NCBI GenBank assembly: GCA_012970285.1
Contig: JIBW01000002.1
Span: 1,240,001 to 1,304,000, forward strand
DNA length: 64,000 nt
From: Bacillaceae bacterium JMAK1
GTDB lineage: Bacteria > Bacillota > Bacilli > Bacillales > Marinococcaceae
Reading direction: 5' to 3'
Shown here: in pieces, positions 164-15,675 of the stretch
How positions within the stretch are numbered: position 1 is the stretch's first letter
Layout of the letters: each line of letters opens with the position of its first letter
Program-made: the position numbers and the translations under genes
Notes under the pieces: model-generated
What the model saw: the letters and a program-made list of their open reading frames with translations, nothing else
The model's database searches: none
Told to the model about the DNA's origin: nothing

Positions 164-178
164 TACTCCTTCTCCCTT

Positions 179-1282: not shown

Positions 1283-1333
1283 AACTAGCCTCCTTCAAGT
1301 AATGTGGATGTTCGTAAATGTTGCCGATGACTT

Positions 1334-1639: not shown

Positions 1640-2039
1640 CGCCTGCCACCTCTTTCAAGTAATTTTCGTACGCTTTCTGGGCGATCTTTGTTTCGCTGAT
1701 CGGCGCACCAACTCGTACGGCTTCTTGCACAAAACGTTCGTCGTTATCATGAAAAGGTTCGTTGTGAATGTACAAATACCAATGCACCAACTCATGAAGC
1801 AGCGTCCCTTTAACCTGATCATTTGTTCTTTGCGCATTTCTTACCTCACTGAATTCAAACCATAATTTACATTTGTCTTCTATCCCACGGCGAAACGAAG
1901 CATTTTGGCGTTTCCAATTACGATTGTGAATAATGATGTCACCTGTATACGGTATCCCCCAATGATGTTGTGACAGCTCATTCGCCAACGATAATAAGTC
2001 TTCTCTTGTGTACGTACACGACTCGTTACATTCACTCAT
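1632..2039 (-). CDS. SprT-like zinc metallopeptidase-fold protein
   Basis: 135 residues. The segment TLLHELVHWYLY carries an HExxH zinc site near residue 83 in the context typical of the SprT-like domain, preceded by a beta strand (CKLWFEFSEV) that usually forms the active-site edge. The SprT family includes the DNA-protein crosslink protease Spartan; phage members are uncharacterised. No C-terminal Cys ribbon is visible, so it is a short version. Start ATG 2037-2039 lies in a 21-bp repeated start cassette shared with the next upstream gene. Confidence 0.75.
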   Translation of the reverse strand: MSECNESCTYTREDLLSLANELSQHHWGIPYTGDIIIHNRNWKRQNASFRRGIEDKCKLWFEFSEVRNAQRTNDQVKGTLLHELVHWYLYIHNEPFHDNDERFVQEAVRVGAPISETKIAQKAYENYLKEVAGDE

Positions 2040-2289
2040 CGCCCTTCGCTCCTTTCATTTCCTCTTCTGCTGCTTCGAAAAATCTATCAAATGGCTCAAT
2101 ATCTCCATTCAAATGCCAATTTGACACTCCTAAACCTTGCTCGTATAACCCTTCATAATAAGCATGAAACCTCTCATAACGTTCAGCTTTTTCAGCTTGT
2201 TGGATTAGCCAAACAAAATCACTATCTCTTGTTTTCCCCCATTGCCTCCGTCTTTCTAGGACTTCTTTTAACTTCTGTTCTTTACTCAT
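2032..2289 (-). CDS. Hypothetical phage protein, 85 aa
   Basis: The protein starts MSKEQKLKEVLERRRQWG and is helical and charged, ending in an acidic tail (EEEMKGAKGDE). I chose the ATG at 2287-2289 because AAGGAGCGAAGG precedes it at the right distance; the longer open frame upstream lacks a ribosome site and overlaps the small zinc-ribbon gene. Similar short proteins are common in Bacillus phages but have no assigned function. Confidence 0.6.
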   Translation of the reverse strand: MSKEQKLKEVLERRRQWGKTRDSDFVWLIQQAEKAERYERFHAYYEGLYEQGLGVSNWHLNGDIEPFDRFFEAAEEEMKGAKGDE

Positions 2290-2302
2290 CGCCCTTCGCT
2301 CC

Positions 2303-2434
2303 TTAGTCAAATTGGGTTGTTCCACACGTAGGACAAAAATGAACTTCTGGTTGATCACCTAAAACGTAGACTTTGAAATCAATATTGCAGTACCGACAAT
2401 GGTGTTCCGCATCATTAACCCAATCATCTTCCAC
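2303..2434 (-). CDS. Small zinc-ribbon protein, 43 aa
   Basis: The minus strand encodes a 43-residue protein starting with GTG at 2432-2434, immediately after the stop codon of the upstream HTH gene, and ending at TAA 2303-2305. It has two CxxC knuckles (CRYC near residue 13 and CPTC near residue 34) separated by a beta-rich linker (FKVYVLGDQPEVHF), the layout of a rubredoxin-like zinc ribbon. GGAGGCGGAG precedes the start. Its partner is unknown. It is too short for ordinary ORF cut-offs. Confidence 0.65.
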   Translation of the reverse strand: MEDDWVNDAEHHCRYCNIDFKVYVLGDQPEVHFCPTCGTTQFD

Positions 2435-2680
2435 TCACTCCGCCTCCTTTATCAACTTGTTAATCCTATAAGCAAAGAAGATGGCTTCAACCGGTTGCCC
2501 ATAATACTCAGCAATGACAATCATTCTGTCAGGTGATGGAAGCCGCTCGCCTTTTTCATAGCTTGATAATAAGTTTTCATGGATTCCTAGGGCTTTTGCG
2601 ACTTCTTTAATTGTCGTGTTTTTACGCCTACGCTTACGTAGCTCTTTTAAACGTTTACCAACGCTTACTCGGTCAATCAC
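2435..2680 (-). CDS. XRE-family HTH protein, 81 aa
   Basis: A helix-turn-helix of the XRE/Cro type spans roughly residues 5-60 (VGKRLKELRKRRRKN, then IKEVAKALGIHENLLSSYEKG). The GTG start at 2678-2680 has AGGAGG eight bases upstream and gives the normal XRE N-terminus; the longer frame is probably untranslated. Sitting in the middle of the replication operon, it may tune middle or early phage expression. Its DNA target is unknown. Confidence 0.7.
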   Translation of the reverse strand: MIDRVSVGKRLKELRKRRRKNTTIKEVAKALGIHENLLSSYEKGERLPSPDRMIVIAEYYGQPVEAIFFAYRINKLIKEAE

Positions 2681-2691
2681 TTGATCGCCTC

Positions 2692-3489
2692 CTAACAGAG
2701 TCGTAAACCATAAACCCAATCAGCAGCTATAGGATTAAGCCAAAGTACTTCTTCTCTTTTTGCACCAGCTTCTGCAACGGAAGAGATCGTTTCATTTTTC
2801 CAATCACTCAATATCTCTTCATACAAATCGCTCTTATATCCCGATAAAAGTACTGGTCCAGGATGATCGATTAGAACCTTTAAAAGTTCTTCGTGGTCTC
2901 TATCTGACATTTCATGCTTGTATGCTGTAGTTGTTCTTGTATTTAAAAGGTAAGGAGGATCTGCATAAATTAATACGTTTTGCCTTGCGTATCTTTGAAT
3001 GAGTTTTACTGCAGGTTGTTTTTCAATCTGAACCCCTTTCAAACGTTCAGATATCGATACTACCTTATCTGGAAAGGCTAACCATTCTTTGCCTGGCAAC
3101 GGTCCATTTCCTTCGATCATGCTACGCCATCCCGTACGATGGGCAGTTTTACCACCCCTACCCTGCCAAAGTCGTACAATAAGCCTCCTTGCTTTCTCAA
3201 CATTATTTTCTGCCTCGAGGTAACTGTTGTAATATTCCTGTCTTGAGTGTGGCGTGTAATAAATCGCATGAGCTAATCGCTCTGGTTGCTCACGTATGAC
3301 ATTAAATAAATTGACTATATCTTCATCGAGATCATTCACTGTTTCAAGTTTGCTTCGGTCCTTAGTAAAGAGTACGGCGCCTGACCCAAAGAACGGCTCC
3401 AAATAAGTCTCATGTGGCGGCATTTGTTCAATTATCCATTTAGCAATTCGCCACTTACTGCCTGGGTAATGCAAAATCCTTGGGATCAC
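2692..3489 (-). CDS. DNA adenine-N6 methyltransferase, D12/Dam class
   Basis: About 265 residues. The N-terminal HYPGSKW loop, the FFGSGAVLF SAM-binding motif and the DPPY catalytic motif (near residue 178) appear in the order of the alpha-group Dam/DpnM (MethyltransfD12) family. It should methylate adenine in a short DNA site using S-adenosylmethionine, probably to escape host restriction or to mark replication. The GTG at 3487-3489 is preferred because AGGAGG lies eight bases before it. No cognate restriction gene is adjacent, so it is an orphan methylase. Recognition site unknown. Confidence 0.85.
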   Translation of the reverse strand: MIPRILHYPGSKWRIAKWIIEQMPPHETYLEPFFGSGAVLFTKDRSKLETVNDLDEDIVNLFNVIREQPERLAHAIYYTPHSRQEYYNSYLEAENNVEKARRLIVRLWQGRGGKTAHRTGWRSMIEGNGPLPGKEWLAFPDKVVSISERLKGVQIEKQPAVKLIQRYARQNVLIYADPPYLLNTRTTTAYKHEMSDRDHEELLKVLIDHPGPVLLSGYKSDLYEEILSDWKNETISSVAEAGAKREEVLWLNPIAADWVYGLRLC

Positions 3490-3671
3490 ACCGCACACCT
3501 CCTTGTATTGATGTGGTCCTCAATTCGCTTTTTCAAAGATTCGTATTTTTCAATCCGTTCACTTTCTCGTCGATCGTGTTCAGCTGGAGGGCAAGCAATG
3601 CATCCGACTGCTTGCAATCCGTAGCTTAATTGCGTGTATACGATCCCCGTTCCGTCACAGACATTACACAT
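3486..3671 (-). CDS. Small double-CxxC protein, 61 aa
   Basis: Starting at the ATG 3669-3671, with AGGAGG eight bases upstream, the protein begins MCNVCDGTG and has a second CIAC pair near residue 24, followed by a charged helix. This resembles half of a DnaJ-type zinc finger. The start overlaps the end of the DnaC-type gene by eight bases. A longer upstream frame exists but lies inside the DnaC gene and has no ribosome site. Function unknown. Confidence 0.6.
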   Translation of the reverse strand: MCNVCDGTGIVYTQLSYGLQAVGCIACPPAEHDRRESERIEKYESLKKRIEDHINTRRCAV

Positions 3672-4587
3672 TGGACGCAACCTCCTTAAACCGCATATCT
3701 TTACCAGATGCCTCAAGTAAGTATCGTCCACACTCTCCAAATAATCGGCTTGCACCTGCATAACCAATCTTTTCAGCGAGCGAGCTACGATCTTCATTAG
3801 AGTTAAAAACAATGGGTTTATTACGTTTATATCGCTCATTAATGATGGTGTAGTACATCCGTTCACGAGGCTCTGTATTGCTTACTTTTCCAATGTCATC
3901 CCAAATGAGTACATCCGCTTTTAAGGCGCTATCTAGCAGTTTAAAATACGACTCGTTGTTATCATCCGCTTTTCGAGCTTGCATAAGATCATCAATAAAC
4001 GTGACATCCGATACGACCAATACGTTAAAACCGTCTTTCACTAGCTTTTTAGCCAAAGCCATTTGAAGGTGAGTCTTGCCGATCCCGAAGTTGTTTTTAA
4101 GCTTTTTCATCTTTGCGCGGTCTACTGGATTAAGCTCACGCATACTAGACTCACCAACTTCTGCTATAAGCCCGAAATTGTAGTTGCTGAACTTCTTTTC
4201 TTGCCGACCATCCTCTGCTGTAAAAACACTAAATTCCTGCAAATAATCAACGGTCATTTCATGCATGAGATGTTGTACATTAGCGTCCATGTTGAAGTTA
4301 TCAAGTCGAGCATCTACAAACTCATCAGGGACCATTGAGCTTTTAAAACGTCGCTGCCATTCTTTCCTTGCCGAACACTCACAAGGTTTCGCCCAATCAG
4401 TCCCAATCTCATCATTTTCATCTCTGTATACTTTGTAAAAAACAAGCTCCTTGCCGTTGCATTTAGGGCATTCGTTATCCGCCCCAGGCTTCTTTGGAGG
4501 ATTGGATTTCTGCGAGTAGTTCTTCTGCTGTTTTATGACCTTTTCCAAATCCGCCATTACTTCGCCCACGCTTTGAAACCTTGTCAT
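3664..4587 (-). CDS. DnaC/DnaI-like replicative helicase loader
   Basis: 307 residues. An N-terminal zinc ribbon (C40, C43, C69, C71) is followed by an AAA+ core with Walker A NNFGIGKT (about 165-172) and Walker B VLIWDDIG (about 226-233). The P-loop lacks the usual first glycine and is preceded by a roughly 25-residue insert rich in Lys and Arg. It loads the replicative helicase at the phage origin with the initiator encoded just upstream, which it overlaps by 113 bases. The ATG at 4587 is supported by GGGGTGAG. It corresponds in position to YqaM of skin. Confidence 0.85.
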   Translation of the reverse strand: MTRFQSVGEVMADLEKVIKQQKNYSQKSNPPKKPGADNECPKCNGKELVFYKVYRDENDEIGTDWAKPCECSARKEWQRRFKSSMVPDEFVDARLDNFNMDANVQHLMHEMTVDYLQEFSVFTAEDGRQEKKFSNYNFGLIAEVGESSMRELNPVDRAKMKKLKNNFGIGKTHLQMALAKKLVKDGFNVLVVSDVTFIDDLMQARKADDNNESYFKLLDSALKADVLIWDDIGKVSNTEPRERMYYTIINERYKRNKPIVFNSNEDRSSLAEKIGYAGASRLFGECGRYLLEASGKDMRFKEVASNV

Positions 4588-5464
4588 CGTTACTCACCCC
4601 ATTTTGGTTTTCCTGTCGTGATTGTTTGTCATGGTGTCGATCTAAGATAAAGCCAACACAGTAATCAAGGCTTTGAATCCTATCTCGGTTATGTCGTGGG
4701 GCATAGGTGTCAAACCGCTCTTGTAGCCACTCCAGAGCGTCATCGAGTTTGACACCCGCACCCACAATCTCTTGTGCTGCTGTAAAATCTTTTGTGCTTT
4801 CCATGAATCCACTACCACGCAACTGAATATACTTGTCCAAGATCGTTCGAACAGGGTCGGCAGAAGTATGTGATATTTCGTCTGCTTTCGAAACAGACTC
4901 ACCGTTACGGTCGGCTGTAGGCACTCCGTCACTTTCTCCCACGCGCATATTAGTAGCTGTAGTACTTAATTGATTAATCCTTAATTCATCTTTATTACAT
5001 CGGACACTTCTGTCTGATCTCTTGGACAAATCTGTCCGATCTCCACCCGACGAATTTGTCTGATCTCTATTAGATAAGACATTATTGTCCGATCTCTTTT
5101 CATCTAAAGAACGGACATTTTTGTCCTTTCTCTTACTGAAGCCCCGCTTAGAATTTCTAACCGTAAATATCAGACCATAAGGTGCTCTCTTTACGAAAAG
5201 ATACTGATGCTTTTCTAAATCCTTAATCCACCTACTCACGGTCTTTTCACTTACTTCAAATAGAGTGGCGAGCTCATAGAGCTTGTGAGGTTTATTGCCC
5301 TTAACGATGCCCCATTGCACTCCGTCCCTCTCAACTTCATCTGTTGTCGAACTCACACACCATAAAAACAGCCAAATTGCATTCCCGATCTGCTTGTAGT
5401 GTTCAGGTGTCAAAAGACCCGTGTAGGTGTAGAATGGATGGCTCTGCTTCTCCTCTCCAGGCAC
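4475..5464 (-). CDS. Phage replication initiator / replisome organizer
   Basis: 329 residues, GTG start behind GGGGGTGG. The N-terminal third contains a winged-helix (LYELATLFEVSEKTVSRWIKDLEK, about residues 60-85). The centre (about 105-160) is a low-complexity, charged linker encoded by the iteron-like DNA repeats. The C-terminal part (about 200-290) has the helical pattern seen in replisome-organizer proteins. Its place directly before the DnaC-type loader matches YqaL/YqaM in skin and O/P in lambdoid phages. It should bind the origin located inside its own gene and recruit the loader. Confidence 0.75.
   Translation of the reverse strand: MPGEEKQSHPFYTYTGLLTPEHYKQIGNAIWLFLWCVSSTTDEVERDGVQWGIVKGNKPHKLYELATLFEVSEKTVSRWIKDLEKHQYLFVKRAPYGLIFTVRNSKRGFSKRKDKNVRSLDEKRSDNNVLSNRDQTNSSGGDRTDLSKRSDRSVRCNKDELRINQLSTTATNMRVGESDGVPTADRNGESVSKADEISHTSADPVRTILDKYIQLRGSGFMESTKDFTAAQEIVGAGVKLDDALEWLQERFDTYAPRHNRDRIQSLDYCVGFILDRHHDKQSRQENQNGVSNDDKVSKRGRSNGGFGKGHKTAEELLAEIQSSKEAWGG
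5011..5132. repeat. Iteron-like repeats, candidate prophage replication origin
   Basis: Five copies of TGTCYGATCTC (the last degenerate, TGTCCTTTCTC) begin at 5011, 5033, 5057, 5086 and 5122 on the plus strand, inside the initiator gene. GGACAAATCTGTCC at 5024-5037 is an inverted pair within the array. Origins with iterons inside the initiator gene are established for lambda O and SPP1-like phages; applying that here is inference. Confidence 0.55.
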
Positions 5465-5475
5465 CGTTCCACCCC

Positions 5476-5652
5476 CTAACTTTTCTTCTTACAAATAACA
5501 TCCATCTTATCAATTCTTACGAACTCAAATTCTGGGTACTGACTCTTAATGTAGCCACGAGCAAAGGTTGCGAATGTCTGCCTTTTGTTTGGGCTTTCTT
5601 CTGCGATCCCCAGGTACTCATAAGGAATTGGAACACGGTATTCATGCAACAT
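5476..5652 (-). CDS. Hypothetical phage protein, 58 aa
   Basis: The likely start is the ATG at 5650-5652, which overlaps the end of the MBL-fold gene by eleven bases; the longer frame upstream lies entirely inside that gene. The protein (MLHEYRVPIPYEYLGIAEES...) has a helix-rich middle and ends in a basic KKKS tail. No motif recognised. The ribosome site is weak, so translation may be coupled to the gene upstream. Confidence 0.45.
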   Translation of the reverse strand: MLHEYRVPIPYEYLGIAEESPNKRQTFATFARGYIKSQYPEFEFVRIDKMDVICKKKS

Positions 5653-6343
5653 AGACTGGCTTACCTGTTGCGCCTTGTATGACTCTCTTAAACTGTTCTT
5701 CATCGCTATTGTTATTGCTAAGATGCAGCAACCACGTTTCTTGTAGTTTCGATAGATCATTTGAGTTAAAGAATTCTTTAACGTTTTCGATGCTAAAATG
5801 CGATCTCATCAAACGCCTTTTCATGAATGGAGGAACAATGCCCTCCGCTATATTTTGATCAAGTAATTGAGTGCTGTAGTTGGCCTCGACCATCACATGG
5901 GTGAGGTTTTTGAATTTGTAACGGATATAATACGTGTCTGTAGCGAACAGGAGACGTTCTCCTGAATCGTTTTGAAGCAAGAACCCTAATGGCTCTGATA
6001 CATCGTGTTGTACGTCAAACGGTAACACTGTCCATGAACCGAGTTTGAATTGCTTCTTCGATTCAACGATATGCATTCGATGGTGATCATCTTTTACAGC
6101 ATCTTTTGTGCCTTGCGACATATAACAATCAATCCCTGCTTTTGTCACCTCACCGATCGCCTTGCAATGGTCCAGGTGTTCATGAGTTATAAGACACCCT
6201 GCAATATCTCTGGTTTGGAAACTCAGCTTGCGTTGAATCTCTCTGTATCGAATTCCTGCTTCCAATAGAACTGAAGTTTTGCCGTCTGTAACGTGATAAC
6301 AGTTACCTGTTGACCCCGTAGCGAGCACCGTTACATTGATCAA
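5642..6343 (-). CDS. Metallo-beta-lactamase-fold hydrolase, phage type
   Basis: 233 residues. The HEHLDH metal motif near residue 54 and ATDTYY near residue 134 place it in the MBL superfamily, nearest to the YycJ/WalJ-like branch that includes nucleases. Phages often carry such a gene next to recT. Because no RecE or YqaJ exonuclease is visible in this operon, it is a candidate for the nuclease that prepares single strands for RecT; that role is inference. It overlaps recT by four bases (ATGA). Confidence 0.8.
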   Translation of the reverse strand: MINVTVLATGSTGNCYHVTDGKTSVLLEAGIRYREIQRKLSFQTRDIAGCLITHEHLDHCKAIGEVTKAGIDCYMSQGTKDAVKDDHHRMHIVESKKQFKLGSWTVLPFDVQHDVSEPLGFLLQNDSGERLLFATDTYYIRYKFKNLTHVMVEANYSTQLLDQNIAEGIVPPFMKRRLMRSHFSIENVKEFFNSNDLSKLQETWLLHLSNNNSDEEQFKRVIQGATGKPVYVA

Positions 6344-7275
6344 AACGGTGGCTCATTACTTTCTTGATTTGAAGTCTTATCAGATTCCCCGTTGCTAAAT
6401 ACTTGACCATCGTCTTTTGGCGATTCTGATTCGCTCTGAGAAACAACCTCAGATTCCTCTTCAGTTACCGGTTCCGCTTCGAAATCAATGACCTCTTTAT
6501 TTGCGTTTTCGCTAAGTTCTGCTTGATGTTTTGCTTCTTCTGCTGCTGTATCGTTTCGATTGAAATAATCCATGACAAGGGATGAATCATCACTGGAGTT
6601 TAAATACCGTTTACAAGCACGATTGATGACAGTCTTCTTTGCCATCTCTTGTTTAAATTCATCATGTGTGGACCCAGCCTTTTCTTTCGTCTGATCCTTC
6701 CCCCAAAACTGTGCCTTACTCCATGCCATACGAAGCTCATCGATCGTCATTACTTCCGTATAGACTTGGTCGTTAGGCAACTTAATTACAGCGTAGGCAC
6801 CAACAATCTTGTCTTTCTTAATGTTTCCGAACTTTTGCTTGTGCTGTAAGTTGGTTATACGTCCATTCACCATGTCATAATCCACTTCATCTTCTTCATA
6901 AATGACTGTGGCATCAATTTCAGTTGCCCCACTCACTCTCTTAGTGACTGCCATTGTTCCAAAATAGGAGCGTTGGAACGTTAGCTGATTGCCGTAGACG
7001 ATGAAATACCCTTGTTTCTTCGCTGGGTTTAACCCTTGTACGACCATTTCAAGCAGTGAGTTAGCAACACTGTCTTTCGTACAAACGTCTAAAGCAGGTT
7101 TCTTATTCTTATCCTGGGTGCTCTGTAGAGTGAGCCAGGCAGACTTCATTGCATTTTCTGGAGAATATCCAACCGGAAAGTGAAGCTCTCCTTTTTCTTG
7201 AAATTCCTTAACTTTGCTTGCAACTACATCAACGGTGTCTTTTTTTATCATTGCGAGTTCATTTTTTGCTGTCAT
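6340..7275 (-). CDS. recT: RecT single-strand annealing protein
   Basis: 311 residues with the RecT pattern: LDVCTKDSVANSLLEMVVQGLNP..KQGYFIVYG and LTFQRSYFGTMAVTKR (about 85-140), and a later KTVINRACKRYLN. It anneals complementary strands during phage recombination and corresponds to YqaK of skin. Beyond residue 240 the protein is acidic, Ser/Glu rich, and ends in NEPPF, which resembles the C-terminal tip that bacterial SSB uses to contact partner proteins. ATG start at 7273-7275 with AGGAGG upstream. Confidence 0.9.
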   Translation of the reverse strand: MTAKNELAMIKKDTVDVVASKVKEFQEKGELHFPVGYSPENAMKSAWLTLQSTQDKNKKPALDVCTKDSVANSLLEMVVQGLNPAKKQGYFIVYGNQLTFQRSYFGTMAVTKRVSGATEIDATVIYEEDEVDYDMVNGRITNLQHKQKFGNIKKDKIVGAYAVIKLPNDQVYTEVMTIDELRMAWSKAQFWGKDQTKEKAGSTHDEFKQEMAKKTVINRACKRYLNSSDDSSLVMDYFNRNDTAAEEAKHQAELSENANKEVIDFEAEPVTEEESEVVSQSESESPKDDGQVFSNGESDKTSNQESNEPPF

Positions 7276-7463
7276 TAGTTAGCCTCCTCTTTCACTTGGA
7301 CAGTTACATATTGCTTCTCTACTACAATTTCTTCTGGTGGAGCATTATTTCGATTCTGTGATTTTCTAATCCGTGATTTCCTTCTTGCTTCTTGAGCATT
7401 TTCAGCTTCAACTTCAATCTTTACAGTTTCTTCGTATACCTCAGTCACAATGTAGAGTGGCAT
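7275..7463 (-). CDS. Hypothetical phage protein, 62 aa
   Basis: A short beta-helix-type peptide: MPLYIVTEVYEETVKIEVEA is strongly beta, then a basic helix (QEARRKSRIRKSQ) and another beta strand (EEIVVEKQYVTVQV). Start and stop overlap its neighbours by one base each, and AGGAGG precedes the ATG. It is unrecognised but clearly operonic with recT. Confidence 0.6.
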   Translation of the reverse strand: MPLYIVTEVYEETVKIEVEAENAQEARRKSRIRKSQNRNNAPPEEIVVEKQYVTVQVKEEAN

Positions 7464-7750
7464 TAGTTAGCCTCCTGTAATTGATTAGATAAGTGCTCTT
7501 CGATGTTAAATACAATCTGGTTATTAGTGTCATTTATCACGATCGTTGCTGTTTGAGAACGATTTACCAAGCCTACTTCAACCGGCATTGTGCAATCGTT
7601 TGAAAAATAACTAGGCTCCTTTTCAAGCTCGTCCTCAGTGAATATTCCTGCTTGATTCAAGTCTCGGGTATAACCCCATGCCCCGGGGCGCCACCAAGTG
7701 TAGTGGTCGCCTACCGAATGTTTTAATGACAAAATATAATATCGTTTCAT
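7463..7750 (-). CDS. Hypothetical phage protein, 95 aa
   Basis: The N-terminal half (MKRYYILSLKHSVGDHYTWWRPGAWGYT) resembles short phage proteins of unknown role that start with RYYILS and contain a Trp-rich loop; the second half is a plain acidic region. It overlaps the Rad50-like gene by one base and has AGGAGG before its ATG. No catalytic motif is visible. Confidence 0.6.
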   Translation of the reverse strand: MKRYYILSLKHSVGDHYTWWRPGAWGYTRDLNQAGIFTEDELEKEPSYFSNDCTMPVEVGLVNRSQTATIVINDTNNQIVFNIEEHLSNQLQEAN

Positions 7751-9774
7751 TAGATCGCCTCCTTGTGTTGCTCGCTAGCATATTCAACGCGTAACTGCTT
7801 GTCCTGTCCTGAAACCGTAAGAGCAATCGTTTGTGCATTGATGTCAAAAAGCTCTGTCACTGCTTCGCTATTGTCGATAAAGATTGGTACGGAAATACCG
7901 TAGTGCTCGGACAGGGTACGAATAATGTCGAGTCCAACGTTGATTCTCGCAGCATTGTTGAGGCCTTTTGAGTAAGGTACGCCTTTATAAAGTGTCTCGC
8001 ACGTTTCCTCAACACCACCATTAACCAATGTTTCAAAGAGTTTAAATGTCGCAAACTCAAACTTGCCGTTGATACGATCTTCAATAATTTGTGTTTTCGT
8101 ACGAGTAAAGTGCTCTGTTAAAAACAGCTGTTCTTCTAATTCCTCGTAGCGATCGGCTAAGTCTCTTTCTTGCACCGTTAGCTCACTAATTCGAGACTTT
8201 CCAGTGTTGCTTTGTTCAAATTTGTAAAGATCGTTCTTAACAGTGCTTAATTTCTCTTTCAGTTCGGTGATTTCAATTTGAACTGCGCTAACAGCATTCT
8301 GGGCACTTTGTTTAAGTTCATCGATCTTACTAATGATCCGGTTCTTCTCAGCGACTTTTTCTTGATAATCAAACGACTCACTAATATCCATCGTTTTTTC
8401 TTGTGCTGTTTTATATTCTGCCTCGAGTGATTGAACCGACTCTAGAGCCTTTTGATACTCAACTTCATCGCTTTCAATAGTCGCTTTTTTGCCTTCAATT
8501 ACTTGCTCAAAACTTTCGATTTGGCTTTTCAAACGCTTGCCTTCTGCCACTACCTCTTCTAGTTGAGAAGCTTTACGTTGATTAAATGCATCTTGTGCAG
8601 TTTGTTTGGCTTGCTGAGCTTTTTCTCTAGCTGCAGCAATTTGATCCTCTGGTAAACTCTGTGCACATGTTGGGCAAACCGTTCCTTCATCGTGGCTATG
8701 ATCGTTCCATGTAAACGAGCGATCGTTTATGGCTTTCCAATCATCTCGTAATCCGTTCGCTTGTTCTGTATAACGAGCAATACTTTGTTCTGCACTAGTG
8801 ATTTCTTGTTGGTGTGAGCGAATTGTTGATTGGATATTATTTGCTTCGAGCTTCTTGCTGTGGATTCGTTCAGACAAATCCGAAACAAGCTTTTGATTGT
8901 GTGTTTGATACTCTGCTTTGATTTCATTAATTTCTGTTTCAATTTCGCTAAGCAAACGCTTCTGCTCAGTCACTTCTGTACCAGAGTTTAAGCGAGTTAC
9001 TTCATCCTGTTTAGAGCCGATCTCTGCTTCTAGCGCTTGCGATTCAGCGTGAAGTTCTTCTTGATCCAAACCGTTCAGATCAGGCAATCCACGGGACACC
9101 TCACTAATCCGCACTGGTATCTTTTGAAGTTCTTCGTTAATGTCTTTTTGCTTCTTCTTAACAATTTCTCTATGCTTGTCCACCGGTCTTTCATCGAGAA
9201 TAGACAATAGTCTTTCAAGCTTCTTGTCAGATGAAATGACCTCTGAGTCATCAATGTCTGCACCGGCAAGCGTTAACAACGTTTCTCGACGTTCTTTCCA
9301 TTTCAATTCCTCATTAAAATACGAAGGAGAAGTTATTAACTTGAAAACATCCTCTGAAATAATGTTGCCAATCTCAGCATCAAATTCTTTCTTCTTAGCC
9401 GGAACGGTGTCTACATAATGGTCAACCGTGTGTCCTGTAAATTCTTTATCTGCTCGACCACGCTTTTTTGTCCACTCTTCGCTGTACACCTTTTTGAGTG
9501 TCTTTACTGCCCCGTCAATTAGCAATACAACTTCCACCTCATGCTCCAGACCGTGTAAGACCTCACCTTTATGATCTAGTGTCTTGATGGCAAACTTGCT
9601 GCTATTCGTTGAATCTTTGCCGAAGAGTAGCCAAAGGAATGCATCGTAAATCGTTGTCTTGCCAGTCGCGTTGTCTCCGAACACCTTTAGATCGGCACCT
9701 TCTGCTTGTAATACAAACGACTTAATACCTTTAAAATTTTTAAGTGACAGTTTAACAATCTGGATCTTTTTCAT
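7750..9774 (-). CDS. Rad50/SbcC-like SMC-type ATPase
   Basis: 674 residues. Walker A GDNATGKT lies at 33-40. Two long coiled coils (about 180-345 and 375-560) flank a CPTC zinc hook at 367-370. The C-terminal ATPase half ends with a degenerate Walker B/D-loop region (PIFIDNSEAV). Rad50/SbcC proteins tether DNA ends and drive the Mre11/SbcD nuclease; no SbcD-like gene is nearby, so it may pair with the MBL-fold protein. Shorter than cellular SbcC (about 1000), as is usual for phage forms. Overlaps the next gene by four bases. Confidence 0.85.
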   Translation of the reverse strand: MKKIQIVKLSLKNFKGIKSFVLQAEGADLKVFGDNATGKTTIYDAFLWLLFGKDSTNSSKFAIKTLDHKGEVLHGLEHEVEVVLLIDGAVKTLKKVYSEEWTKKRGRADKEFTGHTVDHYVDTVPAKKKEFDAEIGNIISEDVFKLITSPSYFNEELKWKERRETLLTLAGADIDDSEVISSDKKLERLLSILDERPVDKHREIVKKKQKDINEELQKIPVRISEVSRGLPDLNGLDQEELHAESQALEAEIGSKQDEVTRLNSGTEVTEQKRLLSEIETEINEIKAEYQTHNQKLVSDLSERIHSKKLEANNIQSTIRSHQQEITSAEQSIARYTEQANGLRDDWKAINDRSFTWNDHSHDEGTVCPTCAQSLPEDQIAAAREKAQQAKQTAQDAFNQRKASQLEEVVAEGKRLKSQIESFEQVIEGKKATIESDEVEYQKALESVQSLEAEYKTAQEKTMDISESFDYQEKVAEKNRIISKIDELKQSAQNAVSAVQIEITELKEKLSTVKNDLYKFEQSNTGKSRISELTVQERDLADRYEELEEQLFLTEHFTRTKTQIIEDRINGKFEFATFKLFETLVNGGVEETCETLYKGVPYSKGLNNAARINVGLDIIRTLSEHYGISVPIFIDNSEAVTELFDINAQTIALTVSGQDKQLRVEYASEQHKEAI

Positions 9775-10073
9775 AGTCCAACAACATCACCTTTCACAAC
9801 GTATTTAAGATACTCTGCTTCGCTAATGACCGTGTACAAGTAAATCCCGTTATAACAGACATTAAATCTGTACTTCAGTTCTGTACCTAAGACGTTTAAA
9901 TGCTCGATTTCATAAGAATCAAATAGTGTAAAAAACGTTTCTGGATCAGCTATGATTTCTAGTTGCTTTGACCATGTATTATAGTGAGCTGAAAAACGAC
10001 CTAGCTCTTTTAACTCCTTGTGTGACTTCTCAAGATCATTTCCTAGTTGCTCCAAACGTTTCAACTTATCCAT
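9771..10073 (-). CDS. Hypothetical phage protein with N-terminal coiled coil, 100 aa
   Basis: The first 30 residues form an amphipathic coiled coil (MDKLKRLEQLGNDLEKSHKE); the remainder is a small alpha/beta domain. ATG start behind GGAGG, and an ATGA-type overlap with the Rad50-like gene that follows, suggest it works with that ATPase. Family not recognised. Confidence 0.6.
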   Translation of the reverse strand: MDKLKRLEQLGNDLEKSHKELKELGRFSAHYNTWSKQLEIIADPETFFTLFDSYEIEHLNVLGTELKYRFNVCYNGIYLYTVISEAEYLKYVVKGDVVGL

Positions 10074-10092
10074 TTGTATCCTCCAATGCTCC

Positions 10093-10190
10093 CATTGCGT
10101 GAATGCTGGGGTTAGGCTACAATGGAGCTATAAATGTTTTGGTTAACCCCTGAGTCGATTTGAGTGCCCGCTCAAACGGCTCTTTTTTGT
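10093..10190 (+). ncRNA. Candidate small RNA between early phage genes
   Basis: On the plus strand, opposite to the surrounding genes, TTGCGT (10093-10098) and TACAAT (10116-10121) are separated by exactly 17 bases. A GC hairpin with an imperfect stem (around 10162-10182) followed by TCTTTTTT lies about 60 bases downstream. The implied RNA would be 60-70 nt and contains only a nine-codon frame. It may be an antisense or untranslated regulator; promoter and terminator are seen, the RNA is inferred. Confidence 0.35.
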
Positions 10191-10321
10191 TTGGCATAAA
10201 CTCTACGAACGAAAGATTCATCAAATGCTAGCTTTGATGCTACTTGCGGAACTCCGCGTTTCTCACCAAGCACTTTGATATGCTGGACGATGTAAAAATT
10301 TAAGTCATTATTCGTAATCAA
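10172..10321 (-). CDS. Small HTH-like protein, 49 aa
   Basis: A TTG start at 10319-10321 follows CTGGAGGTGAGG. The peptide runs LITNNDLNFYIVQHIKVLGE, then KRGVPQVASKLAFDESFVRRVYAKQKR, which has the length and pattern of a single helix-turn-helix (VPQVASKLAFDESFVRRVY). It probably binds DNA as part of early gene control. The stop overlaps the terminator-like hairpin of the opposite-strand candidate RNA. Confidence 0.5.
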   Translation of the reverse strand: MITNNDLNFYIVQHIKVLGEKRGVPQVASKLAFDESFVRRVYAKQKRAV

Positions 10322-10326
10322 CTACC

Positions 10327-10416
10327 TCACCTCCAGATAAAATTAAATGCACCTAATGCCGAAAGGTATGCTATTATTGCCAAAGTGACTAGCACTCCAC
10401 TTTCAATCTTTCTCAT
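10327..10416 (-). CDS. Single-pass membrane micropeptide, 29 aa
   Basis: An ATGA overlap with the stop of the upstream regulator starts a 29-residue peptide: a basic MRK head, a hydrophobic run of about 18 residues (VLVTLAIIAYLSALGAF) and a Trp-Arg end. Its stop codon lies inside the ribosome site of the next small gene. Translational coupling on both sides supports expression. It could be a small membrane effector or merely a coupling ORF. Confidence 0.4.
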   Translation of the reverse strand: MRKIESGVLVTLAIIAYLSALGAFNFIWR

Positions 10417-11069
10417 GAAAGTGGTCCGTTCATGGCAACAAGTTTTTCAATGTGTTCTGTATATACCTTTTCCGATTTGTACGCTTCGTATTGTTCAACG
10501 GACTTTACAACAACACCAGTAGCAATAGATTGTGCAATCCAACGATTACGAACATGCTCTTTTGCTACACCCCAGACATTCTCCGCGACATCTGCGATAC
10601 AATAACTCGCCTGTCTAACATCCAATATCTGTTTTAGTAGACTTTCTACTTCTTCTAATTCAATCTGACTGAACTCCTTGCCTGGACGCTTAGATACCGA
10701 AATCATTTGTAATTGTCGAGCAGCTTCTTCCGCTTCTTTAATTTCATTGACGAAGTTAATTAATTGCGTAGACATGTCAGCCAGTAAGCGCGGATCCGTC
10801 GGCGGTAACGGTGTAAGACCATAAATATATAAGATTTTCTGTTTTGCCAATGAATCATTGACTGCATCACACCAGGCAATCGCTGTTTCTAAGCTCGGGG
10901 GAGTATCACCGTCTTCGATCGCTGTTAATGCACGATAGGATAACCCAAGCTCTCGTGATAACCATTGTTTGGTACGGCGTTCGGGTTGACTTGCTCTATC
11001 ACGAGCAATCCGTAGTATGTCTTTTATCCGTGAAGCTCGATATAATGAGTGACTGTTCGCATTTTTCAT
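10413..11069 (-). CDS. XRE-family phage regulator, 218 aa
   Basis: An HTH lies at about residues 30-60 (KQWLSRELGLSYRALTAIEDGDTPPS), followed by a helical region and a second part (QASYCIADVAENVWGVAKEHVRNRWIAQS) that may be a dimerisation domain. Larger than Cro-type proteins. It is the first large gene of the leftward early operon and may activate or time the replication genes. ATG start at 11067-11069 behind GGAGGCG. No close family recognised. Confidence 0.65.
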   Translation of the reverse strand: MKNANSHSLYRASRIKDILRIARDRASQPERRTKQWLSRELGLSYRALTAIEDGDTPPSLETAIAWCDAVNDSLAKQKILYIYGLTPLPPTDPRLLADMSTQLINFVNEIKEAEEAARQLQMISVSKRPGKEFSQIELEEVESLLKQILDVRQASYCIADVAENVWGVAKEHVRNRWIAQSIATGVVVKSVEQYEAYKSEKVYTEHIEKLVAMNGPLS

Positions 11070-11115
11070 TAATACGTTCGCCTCCGTTTATTCAATTTTG
11101 GTTGATACACTATAC

Positions 11116-11265
11116 TTAGATCGATTCATTGGAAATTGCTTCACGTTCAGCTTGATACTCACCGGACTCAATCTTTTTACGTAAGATTTTCTTAGTAGTG
11201 CTGTACACTCTCGGCATTAATGTGCCGTTTTTGAGTTGTTCACCTTCGATGAGTTTAACTTTCAA
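11116..11265 (-). CDS. Small basic phage protein, 49 aa
   Basis: A TTG start (11263-11265) follows AAGGTGGTGAAG. The peptide is LKVKLIEGEQLKNGTLMPRV then a basic helix (TTKKILRKKIESGEYQAEREA). It could be a nucleic-acid-binding or MerR/excisionase-like short helix protein, but no family is recognised. It lies between the Cro-like gene and the larger regulator, in the same direction. Confidence 0.45.
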   Translation of the reverse strand: MKVKLIEGEQLKNGTLMPRVYSTTKKILRKKIESGEYQAEREAISNESI

Positions 11266-11311
11266 GGACTTCACCACCTTTCGTATTTAAAGCCAATGGA
11301 ACTCACTTCAG

Positions 11312-11554
11312 TTATGCTGAATTACTAGTTTTGATACATTTTTTATCATTGATGTTAAAAAAAATATCAGGGAATAATTCTGTCATATCCTTCGCAAAGA
11401 AATGTACATATTTTAAAATGGTGTTTCTTCCTGGATCTACATCACCTTTTTCAATTTTCCTGACGTAAACTGCTGATATGCCAAGATTATCTGCTAATTC
11501 TTTTTGAGTTTTACCAAGTTCCAATCTTAATTTAATTAGCTGAGTTCTCTCCAT
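11312..11554 (-). CDS. Cro-like XRE repressor, 80 aa
   Basis: A compact HTH (LIKLRLELGKTQKELADNLGISAVYVRKIEKGDVDPG) fills residues 5-45; the tail is short and hydrophobic. It is the first gene of the leftward operon, divergent from the CI-like repressor, so it fits the Cro position. A promoter with TTGACG and TATATT lies upstream, overlapped by two of the four operator copies. ATG start with GAGGTG seven bases upstream. Confidence 0.75.
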   Translation of the reverse strand: MERTQLIKLRLELGKTQKELADNLGISAVYVRKIEKGDVDPGRNTILKYVHFFAKDMTELFPDIFFNINDKKCIKTSNSA

Positions 11555-11572
11555 CTTTACACCTCAATTCTT

Positions 11573-11666
11573 GATACAAAATTTATCTTAACTTAAATAT
11601 AAACGATACAAAATTTATCGTCAACACTTTTTTGATAAAAATTTTATCATAGATACAAATTTTATC
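11573..11666. promoter_or_regulatory. Prophage immunity operators, four palindromic copies
   Basis: Four 15-bp near-palindromes of the form GATAC(A)AAATTTTATC occur at 11573-11587, 11605-11619, 11634-11648 and 11652-11666. Copy 2 fills the spacer of the leftward promoter; copy 1 lies at its start site; copy 4 overlaps the -35 region of the TATAAT at 11677-11682 that faces the repressor gene. The layout is that of a CI/Cro switch. Confidence 0.75.
11596..11624 (-). promoter_or_regulatory. Leftward early prophage promoter
   Basis: Reading the minus strand, TTGACG (11619-11624) and TATATT (11596-11601) are 17 bases apart, close to the sigma-A consensus. An operator occupies the spacer, so repressor binding should block polymerase directly. 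It drives the early operon starting with the Cro-like gene. Confidence 0.65.
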
Positions 11667-11709
11667 GCTCGTTGTTTATAATTGGAGGTGAATAGAGGTG
11701 CTGATCTAT

Positions 11710-12150
11710 ATGCCAAATAAAACCATAGGTCAAAGACTAAAAGATTTACGAGGCAAAAGAACACAAAATGAAGTTTCTATCAAGCTCGGATTATCTCGTG
11801 GTCGTTATGCGCATTATGAAAATGATCGTGTTGAACCGGATATTCCCACTATAAAAAAGTTAGCTTCTTTTTATAACGTGACAACCGACTTCCTTCTAGG
11901 TTATGAAGACTTAGATTCTCATGAAGTAGTTGTTGCAGGAAAAGAAGTTAAGTTAAGCACTGAAGAATATCAAGTCTTTGAAGAAATAAAGAAACATCCA
12001 ATCATGTTTAATGACCTTCAAACAAACACTGAAAAGAAAGTTAAAGAATTGATTCGTATGTGGGAGTATACAAAAAAAGTCCGGGATGATTACGAAGCTG
12101 AGTTAGACCCAGATGATGACGGGATGGGCCCATTACCAGATAGAGATTAG
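11710..12150 (+). CDS. CI-like prophage repressor
   Basis: 146 residues from the ATG at 11710 (PNKTIGQRLKDLRGKRTQ). HTH at about 6-60 (QNEVSIKLGLSRGRYAHYENDRVEPDIPTIKKLASFYNV) followed by TDFLLGYED, the usual end of the domain in Bacillus repressors such as SknR and Xre. The C-terminal half is helical and ends in an acidic DPDDDG tail; no LexA-type peptidase residues are visible, so induction may go through the ImmA-like protein. The GTG at 11698, with GGAGGTG upstream, is an alternative start; TATAAT at 11677 would favour the ATG. Confidence 0.8.
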   Translation: MPNKTIGQRLKDLRGKRTQNEVSIKLGLSRGRYAHYENDRVEPDIPTIKKLASFYNVTTDFLLGYEDLDSHEVVVAGKEVKLSTEEYQVFEEIKKHPIMFNDLQTNTEKKVKELIRMWEYTKKVRDDYEAELDPDDDGMGPLPDRD

Positions 12151-12170
12151 CCGAAAAGGCTTTTCTTTTT
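12149..12170 (+). terminator. Short terminator after repressor gene
   Basis: AGCC-GAAA-AGGCT followed by TTTCTTTTT begins at the repressor stop codon. The stem is short, so read-through into the lipoprotein gene is possible. Confidence 0.5.
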
Positions 12171-12273
12171 AACCTAAAACCGAACAGATATTCCGAACAC
12201 TTATTCCTATTATTTTTTTACTAAAGTATGGGAAAATTTTATATTTAATACTTAATAAGGGAGAGTGAAGGTA

Positions 12274-13311
12274 TTGAGAAAATCAATAGGTACATTGTTA
12301 CTAAGTGCTTTTCTTTTAACTGCATGCGGATCCGATGATGAAATAATTGAGGAAGTATCTGCTGATCAACCTGAATCTAGTGATGCATCCGAAAATGAGG
12401 AACGTTCTAGAGGAATTGATGATTTGTTTAATAAAGATTTAGGTGATCTTGAAGCTCAGGATTGGGACAGTGTTTATATAGCGAAAAGAGATTTTGACCT
12501 TATCTTAAAAGAGATGATTGAGAGCGCTGAAGAACATGACTTGGATATACAGGATATAAAAATGGTTTCTGATGATCATATTGAAGTTATCTATAACTTT
12601 ACAGATGAAGAAGCTATCATGCATGGATTCATTTTGGCGTTTGTTGATGGATTAACCAGATCATTATATCTGAGTTCAGGTTATTACAATGGCGAACAAC
12701 CACTAATAAGTTATTATGATTTAAATGGTGAGCTAATTGGTGAACTTCACGATTTTGCCGATTTTAATGATGAAGATATATCTGATGTAGAAGAAACTAG
12801 TAACAATGTTTTAACTGAAGTAGGTGATTCAATAGAAACAGACGAAGGGACCATTACTTTAAAAAATATAAAAAACACACAAGAGCCTTATAATCATGGA
12901 CAGCTAGAAATCACAATTGAAGATATAAAAGTGTTCGAACGTACAGAAATCCCTGAAACTTATCTAAGTTATGCCCAAGACTTCTCTAATCAACAACTTA
13001 ATGATTCTTACAATTATATACAAGTTGCATATAGTGCTAAAAATAACGATGAGTCTTTAATAAACTGGCGTGGATTTGAAAAAGTAGTATTGAGTAACGG
13101 ACAACAGATTGATGTGTCTTTTGATTCATATAGAGATGGAAGAGAATGGGGTTCTGAATTTTATGGTGGTGTTATCAAGGATGAACATTTCAGTGTGATT
13201 TTTGATGGATCCAGCGAAGACATTGATTTAATTAAATTGGTTTTAAGTGATTCATATGATTCGGACTACAGAACAGTTACAGACTCTACAGAAATTGATT
13301 ATGAGATGTAA
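12274..13311 (+). CDS. Prophage lipoprotein, candidate superinfection-exclusion factor
   Basis: 345 residues from the TTG at 12274 (GGGAG and GAAGG upstream; the GTG at 12265 is too close to the ribosome site). A signal peptide ends in the lipobox LLTAC, followed by a long acidic linker. The second half, from about residue 185 (EVGDSIETDEGTITLKNI), is beta-rich and resembles DUF4352-like extracellular domains. Lipoproteins in the lysogeny module next to the repressor block DNA entry of related phages in some Gram-positive prophages (Ltp-type); that role here is inference from position. Confidence 0.6.
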   Translation: MRKSIGTLLLSAFLLTACGSDDEIIEEVSADQPESSDASENEERSRGIDDLFNKDLGDLEAQDWDSVYIAKRDFDLILKEMIESAEEHDLDIQDIKMVSDDHIEVIYNFTDEEAIMHGFILAFVDGLTRSLYLSSGYYNGEQPLISYYDLNGELIGELHDFADFNDEDISDVEETSNNVLTEVGDSIETDEGTITLKNIKNTQEPYNHGQLEITIEDIKVFERTEIPETYLSYAQDFSNQQLNDSYNYIQVAYSAKNNDESLINWRGFEKVVLSNGQQIDVSFDSYRDGREWGSEFYGGVIKDEHFSVIFDGSSEDIDLIKLVLSDSYDSDYRTVTDSTEIDYEM

Positions 13312-13367
13312 GACTGAATCGACCCTATCGTGAGCTATATAAATAAGTTAAGGGGGGTTGCCCACAA

Positions 13368-13787
13368 GTGAATAATGAGCAATATCTTAAGGAACGTTTA
13401 GAAGACCAAATATCATGGTATGACAACAAGAGTATCAAATCACAGAAAAGATACAAGTCTATAAAGGGTTTTGAAATTATAGTTGCTGCACTCATACCAG
13501 TTGTTGCAATCTTTGAACTAACATGGATAGCAGGGTTAATGGGCGCTTCAATCGCAGTACTAGAAGGAATACTAAACATTAACAAATATCATGAAAATTG
13601 GATTGAATATCGTTCAATCTGTGAAACTTTGAAACATGAGAAATATATGTTTTCTACACTCACTGGTGTATATCGATATTTAGAAGAAGATGATGCTTTT
13701 ATGCTTTTAGTTGAACGTGTAGAAAACATTATTTCAAAAGAAAATGTGAATTGGGCAAACATGAATAGAGAAAAAAAGGAAGGATGA
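13368..13787 (+). CDS. SLATT-family (DUF4231) two-helix membrane protein, candidate defence effector
   Basis: 139 residues, GTG start behind AAGGGGGG. Two adjacent membrane helices lie at about 35-51 and 53-70, followed by a soluble part with W-x-x-Y-R near residue 78 and a helix (ETLKHEKYMFSTLTGVY) ending in the GxY pattern typical of DUF4231/SLATT proteins. The SLATT superfamily has been predicted by comparative genomics to form pores triggered by nucleotide signals in conflict systems. The TIR-like gene follows after six bases. Pore formation is family-based inference. Confidence 0.65.
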   Translation: MNNEQYLKERLEDQISWYDNKSIKSQKRYKSIKGFEIIVAALIPVVAIFELTWIAGLMGASIAVLEGILNINKYHENWIEYRSICETLKHEKYMFSTLTGVYRYLEEDDAFMLLVERVENIISKENVNWANMNREKKEG

Positions 13788-13793
13788 TTTCTA

Positions 13794-14195
13794 ATGACAA
13801 AAGTATTCATTAGCTATGATTATGACGAAGATGCAAATTACAAAAGATTGCTTACTGCGTGGTCAAAAAATGAATCTGATTACTTTAAAGGAATTAGCTT
13901 TGATGATGGGTCAACTGACATTTCAATTAACTCGCATGATGAAGCAGCGATCCGCAGAGCAATATCGCGTCGTCTTAACACATGCGATAAAATTATAGTT
14001 CTTATTGGCAAAGATACGCACAAGAGCAAATGGTGCCGTTGGGAAATTGAAAAAGCTGCTGAATTAGGTCTAAAATTCGTTGCAGTGAAATTGGAAAGTT
14101 CAAACACGACACCTACAGAGTTATATGGAAAAAGTGCCACATGGGCTCATTCGTTTACAAAAGATTCTATAGAGAAAGCAATTAACTCTGCTTAA
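13794..14195 (+). CDS. TIR-like domain protein (MTH538/ThsB type), candidate signal-producing sensor
   Basis: 133 residues, a single domain. Box 1 is [11 protein letters not shown] (residues 3-13); a [12 protein letters not shown] strand follows at 64-75; then [12 protein letters not shown], where Glu84 matches the catalytic glutamate in the W-C-x-x-E helix of TIR NADases. The fold pattern fits the DUF1863/MTH538 family, to which Thoeris ThsB belongs. Such proteins make NAD-derived signals on infection. Together with the SLATT gene it forms a compact two-gene unit; AAGGA precedes the ATG. Activity is inferred. Confidence 0.7.
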
Positions 14196-14397
14196 CCGGT
14201 TCATAAGTTTTTTCAAAAATATCAGGCTTCACTGGATAAGATTCTCCATTAACACCTGTAACAATCCAGTCACCTACATTAGCTTTCATTTTACCCTCCA
14301 AGGTATCTATAGTTCTTTCCTGACTTGTTTGATAAGCACAAACAACAACAGGCTTTTTTCTAAAAAGTTGCTTTTCCTCATGGTGTTGATTTTCCAT
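14182..14397 (-). CDS. PGDYG-type conserved protein, 71 aa
   Basis: The sequence [11 protein letters not shown], then [21 protein letters not shown] and [15 protein letters not shown], matches a short protein family common in phages and bacteria (V..A.Q......T.EG.M....GD.I.TGV.GE.YP.KPDIF..TY). Function unknown. It is convergent with the TIR-like gene and overlaps it by 14 bases. AAGGAGGTG precedes the ATG, and a minus-strand TATAAT at 14422-14427 is a likely -10. Confidence 0.7.
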
Positions 14398-14489
14398 TTC
14401 TGCACCTCCTTTTTAGACAGTATTATAACACATGGCCTATTTTTGTAGTCATTAGTTTCTAGAGCTTTTACTTCTTAGGGTGTGGTCAA

Positions 14490-15056
14490 TTGCTACTTAG
14501 AGAGAAATTACCAAAAATAAAAGATGTATGGGAAGATCGAGCAAATCAAGTGCTAAAACTTTTCAACTTTTCATTTCCTGATGAAATTGACATGGGAGCA
14601 ATATGCTATAAATTCGGCATCAAGATTAAACCAATGCCATTTGGTGATCCTTCTCTTTCCTACTCGCAAATTACAAGGGGAAGACGTGGGATCATCTATA
14701 TAAAGAGTGGTATGGATCCTATAGATAAAAAGATTGTTCTTGCTGAAGAATTTGCCCATATATACTCTCATACTCAACATCAACTAGAGGTAACAGAAAT
14801 CGATATTAATAAAATTGAATTTCAGGCAAAAAAAATGGCAGCATATTTACTAATGCCAACCAAGCTTTTAGGTGAAGTTTATGTTACCGCTTGTCAATTA
14901 ACAGATGCAGTATTAGTATCTGAGATAGCAGATGAATTTTTAGTGTCAGATGAATTTGCATGTTATCGTCTACAACTTGCTTTTGGTCATCCGGTCCATG
15001 GTATTACTAAGATGCCTGACGGATCCTACAGTACCATTCAAATGTTTAAGGAATAA
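14490..15056 (+). CDS. ImmA/IrrE-family metallopeptidase-like protein
   Basis: 188 residues, TTG start. The helix LAEEFAHIYSH carries EExxH instead of the HExxH zinc motif, and KKMAAYLLMP is the conserved downstream helix of the family. The variant first ligand is common among phage members. ImmA proteins cleave phage repressors and release lysogeny, as shown for ICEBs1; YqaB in skin has the same position. It lies between the cargo genes and the sigK junction, where B. subtilis also has the recombinase gene. Substrate is presumably the repressor at 11.7 kb. Confidence 0.75.
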   Translation: MLLREKLPKIKDVWEDRANQVLKLFNFSFPDEIDMGAICYKFGIKIKPMPFGDPSLSYSQITRGRRGIIYIKSGMDPIDKKIVLAEEFAHIYSHTQHQLEVTEIDINKIEFQAKKMAAYLLMPTKLLGEVYVTACQLTDAVLVSEIADEFLVSDEFACYRLQLAFGHPVHGITKMPDGSYSTIQMFKE

Positions 15057-15060
15057 ATGA

Positions 15061-15085
15061 TGGACAAGCCTCTAGAGCTTGTCCA
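15061..15085 (+). terminator. Hairpin after ImmA-like gene
   Basis: GGACAAGC-ctctaga-GCTTGTCC forms a perfect eight-base stem followed by ATTTG. The weak T-run makes termination less certain. It also separates the prophage gene from the sigK fragment transcribed toward it. Confidence 0.55.
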
Positions 15086-15093
15086 TTTGCCAT

Positions 15094-15462
15094 TTAATTA
15101 CGCATCACTACTGTTATAGAGATCTCGTTCTCAATACAACGTGCTGCGTATGTCGCAAGCTTCGTCCCTTTGTTCGGGGAATAGCTTTCAATTCCTTTTA
15201 TCAATCCGATCGTACCGATGGAGATCAAGTCTTCCGTGTCTTCTTTTGTGCTTTCGAATTTCTTAACGATGTGAGCAACGAGTCGTAAATTATGCTCAAT
15301 TAATTTATTGCGGGCGTCTTCATCCCCTTCTTTCATCTTCTCAAGACATTCTTTCTCTTCTTCTTTAGAAAGCGGCTGCGGGAACGCGTGATTTTTCACG
15401 TACGACACGAACATCATTAGTTGCTTAATAAGCAATGCAGCGCCTGCAAGAATTCCAGACAT
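15094..15462 (-). pseudogene. sigK: 5' part of sigK, interrupted by the prophage
   Basis: The ATG at 15460-15462 (GGGAGGG upstream) starts a frame colinear with pro-sigma-K: a 20-residue hydrophobic pro-sequence ending in FVS before [11 protein letters not shown], the [13 protein letters not shown] region and [17 protein letters not shown] of region 2. At Glu-Asn-Glu-Ile (residues 111-114) homology stops; eight unrelated residues follow before TAA. Regions 2.4 to 4.2 are missing. SigK drives late mother-cell transcription in sporulation. In B. subtilis the skin element splits sigK at this point and is excised. CATAAGAT at 15492-15499 is a possible sigma-E -10. Functional only after excision. 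Confidence 0.9.
15118..15132. other. Prophage-sigK junction (attachment site)
   Basis: On the minus strand the codons for Glu-Asn-Glu-Ile read GAGAACGAGATC, and the homologous B. subtilis codons contain the AATGA crossover core (AACGA here). SigK homology ends within this block. GAGATCTC at 15119-15126 is palindromic. The exact core can only be fixed by comparison with the other end, outside the window. Confidence 0.7.
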
Positions 15463-15675
15463 AGTAATCCCTCCCCAAGTCACCTCAAGTCATCTTATGC
15501 AACACACAGCTTGGGTGGTGACACATTTGGGAAAGATGTTTTTCACTTTCTAATGCACGCCTCGTTTGACGTGGGCGTTGTATGTACTTATCCCTGTATG
15601 GACAGGGATATAAGATCATCAGCCAAGTTGTAGCATACCTACTACTGAAAATGCGCACCAAGAAAATGCTCCACT

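Follow-up and report, generated by a model that had tools for sequence, protein, structure and literature searches.

Elements that intervene in sigK are well known as a kind. In the skin element of B. subtilis, which carries spoIVCA and skr, the insertion-site sequence within sigK is AATGA, the recombinase gene faces the 5′ half of the split gene (PMC10745906), and SpoIIID is described as an activator of spoIVCA and of the 5′ sigK half alike (PMC517825). Insertions at AATGA are also described for Bacillus cereus AH820 and J7/J62; the AH820 insertion encodes phage-related proteins and, differing in this from our locus, has its recombinase beside the 5′ half (PMC10745906), a comparison that we draw by description only. 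The skinCd element of Clostridioides difficile is likewise a prophage-like sigK element with a serine recombinase, a directionality factor and SpoIIID control, but it occupies another site in sigK, is reported as opposite in orientation to skin and has a separate recombination unit (PMC5025042). SPbeta in spsM (PMC4191935) and phi3T in kamA (PMC6957869) are active prophages that are excised in sporulation with restoration of the interrupted gene, though from other targets and by other recombination units. The nearest published case that we met is MMB025, an infectious contractile-tailed phage integrated in sigK of Alicyclobacillus (PMC13141910). By title or abstract opening we found no published study of sigK in Geomicrobium, most subscription papers lying outside the search; PMC3756968 names both, and its mention of sigK concerns the B. 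subtilis skin element.

The window analyzed here is a 64,000-nt stretch (contig C4, positions 1240001-1304000) of a 4.12-Mb draft genome in 11 contigs (G000), which kinship places in Geomicrobium; the genus mates compared were Geomicrobium sediminis DSM 25540 (G001), G002 and Geomicrobium sp. JCM 19039 (G003). The locus enlarges the small group of sigK elements by a prophage that looks complete, from a haloalkaliphilic genus whose members have been described as non-spore-forming. Most probably, to judge from gene content and architecture, a temperate contractile-tailed phage has integrated in sigK by means of a skin-type recombination unit and would be excised in the mother cell. The locus shares with skin the same gene, the same codons, a large serine recombinase and a short core (Table 1).

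Table 1. Features of the interrupted sigK locus; positions are those of the window unless given for contig C4 (C4:).
Feature	Position	Strand	Basis or remark
sigK 5′ half, pro-sequence to Glu113	15094..15462	-	122 aa, NCBIfam models
Box CAAGC-N9-CATA	15496..15513	-	51 nt before sigK start; putatively SpoIIID/sigma-E-like
Probable crossover GA, junction with 5′ half (attL)	15125..15126	-	attP symmetry
attL phage-side arm	15109..15124	-	forms a near-inverted repeat with the arm of the opposite element end (GTAATAAAGATC / GATCTCTATAACAG)
Right-hand prophage part, early region	1..15124		phage-gene matches
ImmA-like metallopeptidase	14490..15056	+	Peptidase_M78
CI/Cro-type HTH protein, repressor candidate	11710..12150	+	domain match
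SbcC-like ATPase	7750..9774	-	PHROGs
RecT-like annealing protein	6340..7275	-	PHROGs
DnaD-like helicase loader	4475..5464	-	PHROGs
DnaC-like helicase loader	3664..4587	-	PHROGs
Large serine recombinase, 501 aa	C4:1200604-1202109	-	Resolvase, Recombinase, Zn_ribbon_recom domains
Other junction GA (attR)	C4:1200579-1200580		attP symmetry
sigK 3′ half, outside the window	C4:1200206-1200571	-	same two SigK models

The gene is broken inside codon Glu113. The best profile matches of the 5′ half are the SigK models NF004471 (192 bits, residues 4-117 aligned to profile positions 5-118 of 235) and TIGR02846 (183 bits), against only 131 bits for SigE, and, just as the original prediction had read it, the frame follows the family to Glu-Asn-Glu-Ile (ENEI) and then runs for eight more codons in prophage DNA to a stop. 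That prediction also expected, beyond the left end of the window, a 3′ half starting within ENEILM and a large serine recombinase, and both are present: 54.5 kb to the left, with no change of contig or strand, the 3′ half directly follows the recombinase gene. It matches NF004471 from position 117 on, and on TIGR02846 the two halves cover positions 6-116 and 115-226 of 227. As in skin, then, a mobile element separates two sigK halves that remain in frame. A second intact sigK combined with a missing 3′ half had been named as the mark of a dead fragment; the 3′ half was found, and searches of the host genome found no second sigK, the next-best genome match of the 5′ half being a 60%-identical frame of 244 aa that immediately precedes a SigG-like one and that we read as SigE. 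A natural empty site is provided by G002, where sigK is an uninterrupted 243-aa frame with ENEILMHLR across the insertion site, and when the G000 flanks are joined at their shared GA, 79 residues across the joint are identical to G002.

The junctions in G000 read AACGA and ATCGA, so that only CGA is common around the break. Since the junction regions show no long direct repeat in exact matches (the longest, 10 bases, lies away from the junction), the core was placed from attP symmetry. On either side of a GA, the attP half-sites form a near-palindrome in G000 and G001 and, in G003, an inverted repeat that is perfect over 12 bp. We therefore place the crossover at this GA, which would make it the first and second base of codon 113. 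The agreement of the 5′ arm with the uninterrupted gene past this point may be due to the phage arm, as it too begins GATC. Measured from GA to GA, the element spans 54,546 bp in G000, 53,461 bp in G001 and 52,018 bp in G003. A core at GA falls within the ENEI codons, where we take the AATGA of B. subtilis to sit as well, so that the claim of a break at the same codons as in B. subtilis stands for the codons, while AATGA itself does not recur letter for letter. A comparable site exists in the infectious phage MMB025, where the sequence 3′ of the recombinase is symmetric around GA at 16 of 21 arm positions, with the GA center falling within the published TCTC recombination core at 50,867-50,870 of its record (PMC13141910).

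The recombinase gene stops 23 nt short of the GA at the 3′ junction, and a 70-aa ORF that begins 100 nt upstream of it overlaps its start by 113 nt in another frame. In B. subtilis, the 64-aa Skr shares a 101-nt overlap with spoIVCA in a shifted frame (PMC6957869), and we call the small ORF Skr-like by size, position and overlap; the likeness to SpoIVCA and Skr is thus one of description. A small ORF overlaps the recombinase start in all 26 rows compared (23 distinct loci). In a codon-by-codon comparison of 15 rows, of which L034 and L073 read alike, the small-ORF frame is open throughout and stops occur in 26 of the 30 alternative frames. Differences summed over all pairs come to 1553, 1249 and 1795 at codon positions 1, 2 and 3, the third positions varying most, and Gly8 and Tyr19 are present in every row. 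MMB025 encodes a recombinase 46% identical to ours, whose start is again overlapped by a small ORF with the same motif.

In an alignment of 20 upstream regions, the box CARNY-N8-CATA occupies a fixed place before the small ORF. It is found in 17 of 22 loci (15 with N8, two with N9), where resampling leads one to expect 0.7 loci and reached a maximum of 5 in 500 resamplings, although the pattern was drawn from this same alignment and the loci are related, so that the expected count describes rather than cleanly tests. The background in the 64-kb window is 8 matches with N8 and 6 with N9. A CARNY-N9-CATA box also stands at -51 or -52 before sigK in all four Geomicrobium genomes, while a match within 130 nt before the 5′ sigK half occurs in only 15 of 35 loci. 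Going by the known motif forms of the SpoIIID site and the sigma-E -10 element, the box may combine the two, and control here may thus be of the mother-cell type, as in skin. When the regions upstream of 16 recombinases were scanned for the generally known sigma-E consensus (-35 and -10), the signal did not exceed that of shuffled sequences, and no CARNY-N8-CATA box was matched in MMB025. The five loci in which the small ORF has no box before it are L072, L075, L076, L077 and L086. In the first three, the Skr-like ORF and recombinase directly follow the 5′ half in the same direction, and because no strong hairpin-plus-T signal was found between them, the transcript of sigK itself could drive the unit; among these three only L076 has a box before sigK, at -97. 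The recombinase of L077 is near-identical to that of L076 and has no sigK half nearby, and L086 is a free phage.

From the right-hand part in the window, the prophage runs left to C4:1200581 through late genes, lysis genes, the Skr-like ORF and the serine recombinase. At a cut-off of E <= 0.001, 29 of 30 chosen proteins (one cut at the stretch end) match a PHROGs family. These matches include the small and large terminase subunits, portal, head morphogenesis, tail sheath, tape measure and baseplate proteins, as well as two holins, an endolysin, the RecT-like and SbcC-like proteins, the DnaC and DnaD loaders and an antirepressor; the major capsid gene is presumably a phrog_3116 member, a family of unknown function. 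Genes for packaging, head, tail, lysis, replication and repressor, as expected of an intact temperate phage, are all present, and by its genes the prophage looks contractile-tailed and complete; skin, by contrast, is defective, and MMB025 differs in size (105 kb against 54.5 kb) and host. The ImmA-like gene and the phage-like early genes that the original prediction had noted at this junction are borne out as a Peptidase_M78 protein and, to its left, replication and recombination genes. The G000 and G001 elements align as a mosaic over 40.7 of 54.5 kb at 88%, those of G000 and G003 over 12.2 kb at 72%, and in both pairs the aligned parts include the prophage end with the small ORF, recombinase and attR. 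Near the attL end (13368-14195), an SLATT/DUF4231 membrane protein and a ThsB-type TIR protein look like a phage-borne defence pair. The late region also holds a 279-aa tyrosine integrase (C4:1211139-1211978) besides the serine recombinase.

In the mechanism that we propose, sigma-E and SpoIIID would switch on the Skr-like directionality factor and the recombinase in the mother cell, together with the 5′ sigK half; the recombinase would join attL to attR at GA, releasing the phage as a circle and restoring sigK, while the forespore would retain the prophage. In favor of such a skin-type excision we count the colinear halves with their recombinase, the lack of a second sigK, the empty site of G002 and the 79-residue joint, the attP symmetry, the small ORF, the box, the association with sigK across the order, the phage modules, the core agreement with MMB025 and the presence of SpoIIID above cut-off in 4/4 Geomicrobium; against it we count the description of the genus as non-spore-forming, the post-hoc nature of the box pattern and the null sigma-E scan. 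The most serious alternative is an ordinary temperate phage that uses sigK merely as attB and leaves only on phage induction, so that lysogens could not finish sporulation. The full set of phage modules suits such a phage, as does an infectious relative that integrates in sigK of Alicyclobacillus (PMC13141910), and it fits the description of the genus as non-spore-forming; the sporulation genes present in four draft genomes came as a surprise to their authors (PMC4064037). We nevertheless regard it as unlikely, for in most loci a box of apparent mother-cell type precedes the Skr-like ORF at a constant distance, both sigK halves are open and conserved (94.9 and 98.6% nucleotide identity in the comparison of G000 with G001), SpoIIID and SpoIVA have been retained, and G002 of the same genus has an uninterrupted sigK. 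SpoIVA is above cut-off in all four Geomicrobium genomes, though in two pieces in G002 (L102, L103), where the broken frame may be a draft-sequence error.

The elements of G000 and G001 differ in variable, mosaic stretches, which might be taken as signs of a dead insertion, a decayed phage with sigK fragments that can no longer recombine. Such a state is highly improbable, since the frames of the recombinase, Skr-like ORF, terminase, portal, sheath, tape measure, holin and endolysin are open, the att arms are kept, and the 3′ half protein is identical in G000, G001 and the uninterrupted G002; together with the intact upstream box and the conserved 5′ half, these features also make random decay of sigK the less favored reading, as the original prediction had argued. 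An assembly artefact uniting unrelated pieces could be suspected in a draft genome, yet it has next to no probability, being contradicted by three assemblies (G001 and G003 have the same architecture) and by the contig sequence, which is identical to the window at each of its first 16,000 bases.

If the phage is excised in the mother cell as proposed, the statement that spore formation depends on excision still presupposes that Geomicrobium sporulates. Either these bacteria sporulate under conditions not yet tried, or the loss of sporulation is recent, and the locus raises the question of whether Geomicrobium sporulates after the departure of the phage. This setting is one of two less ordinary aspects of the locus, the other being that its relatives sit in sigK in both orientations, yet with a like phage arm beside the recombinase.

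Among 397 genomes sampled from the order, the recombinase family (E <= 1e-90) occurs in 20, with a sigK half no more than 1.5 kb away in 19 and a colinear arrangement in 18; L071/G402 and L077/G149 are exceptions. The 18 colinear cases fall into three layouts: the recombinase lies upstream of the 3′ half in seven, G000 and G001 included (layout A), faces the 5′ half in six (layout B), and follows the 5′ half in the same direction in five (layout C). The skin recombinase follows layout B (PMC10745906), whereas that of G000 adjoins the 3′ half, in line with it and on the same strand; because layout varies among relatives, this difference marks a variant rather than an exclusion from the skin type.

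On the 3′ side of the recombinase the phage arm is followed by GA in 8/8 A rows and by TC in 8/8 B rows checked, which follows from the orientation of sigK. The arm itself can be common to both layouts, as AATGACATTAGAAT is to A-type L070 and B-type L034, and TGTAATCGAAA to A-type L084 and B-type L083, and the change of strand concerned either the core by itself or the near-palindromic site in its entirety. Because A-type L084 falls inside the B clade in the tree, with starred support but on a long branch that leaves its placement uncertain, at least one polarity change within the recombinase family is likely. With like arms, cores of GA against TC and opposite layouts, L084 (G085) and L083 (G061) form a possible natural polarity switch; for Bxb1, the core dinucleotide alone is reported to set the orientation of a serine integrase (cited in PMC3783163).

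These comparisons invite a broader and more tentative reading, possible but less likely than not to hold in all its parts. sigK would be a standing dock for phages and reduced elements across the order, reached through one mobile unit of Skr-like factor, recombinase and near-palindromic attP; polarity would flip when two core bases or the whole site change strand, with sigK still restorable; boxless elements would use the sigK transcript; and sporulation in Geomicrobium would be intact and gated by excision of a live phage, its lack of spores being conditional. Elements in either orientation, a minimal one of 2 kb, another that is rearranged, and sites left empty form a natural series that bears on how a phage becomes a developmental switch.

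Two further genomes of the same family were not counted, G018 because its sigK match begins only after 22 residues of the 3′ part and the five frames listed beside it include nothing recombinase-like, and G006 because its sigK match lies at a contig end. In another genus of the family, L047 (G024) has a like-reading recombinase directly before the sigK 3′ half. Near the recombinase end of the prophage (L018, 8886-10743) lie replication-relaxation and FtsK/SpoIIIE-like genes, a plasmid-like module. At L087 (7328-9754; G402) the sigK halves point in opposite directions and flank the recombinase, and past the 5′ half lie host-like genes; the arrangement is possibly an inversion. The sigK element of L082 (957-3009; G203) measures 2,051 bp and consists of the recombinase, the Skr-like ORF and one separate 70-aa frame, which makes it a candidate for a minimal skin.
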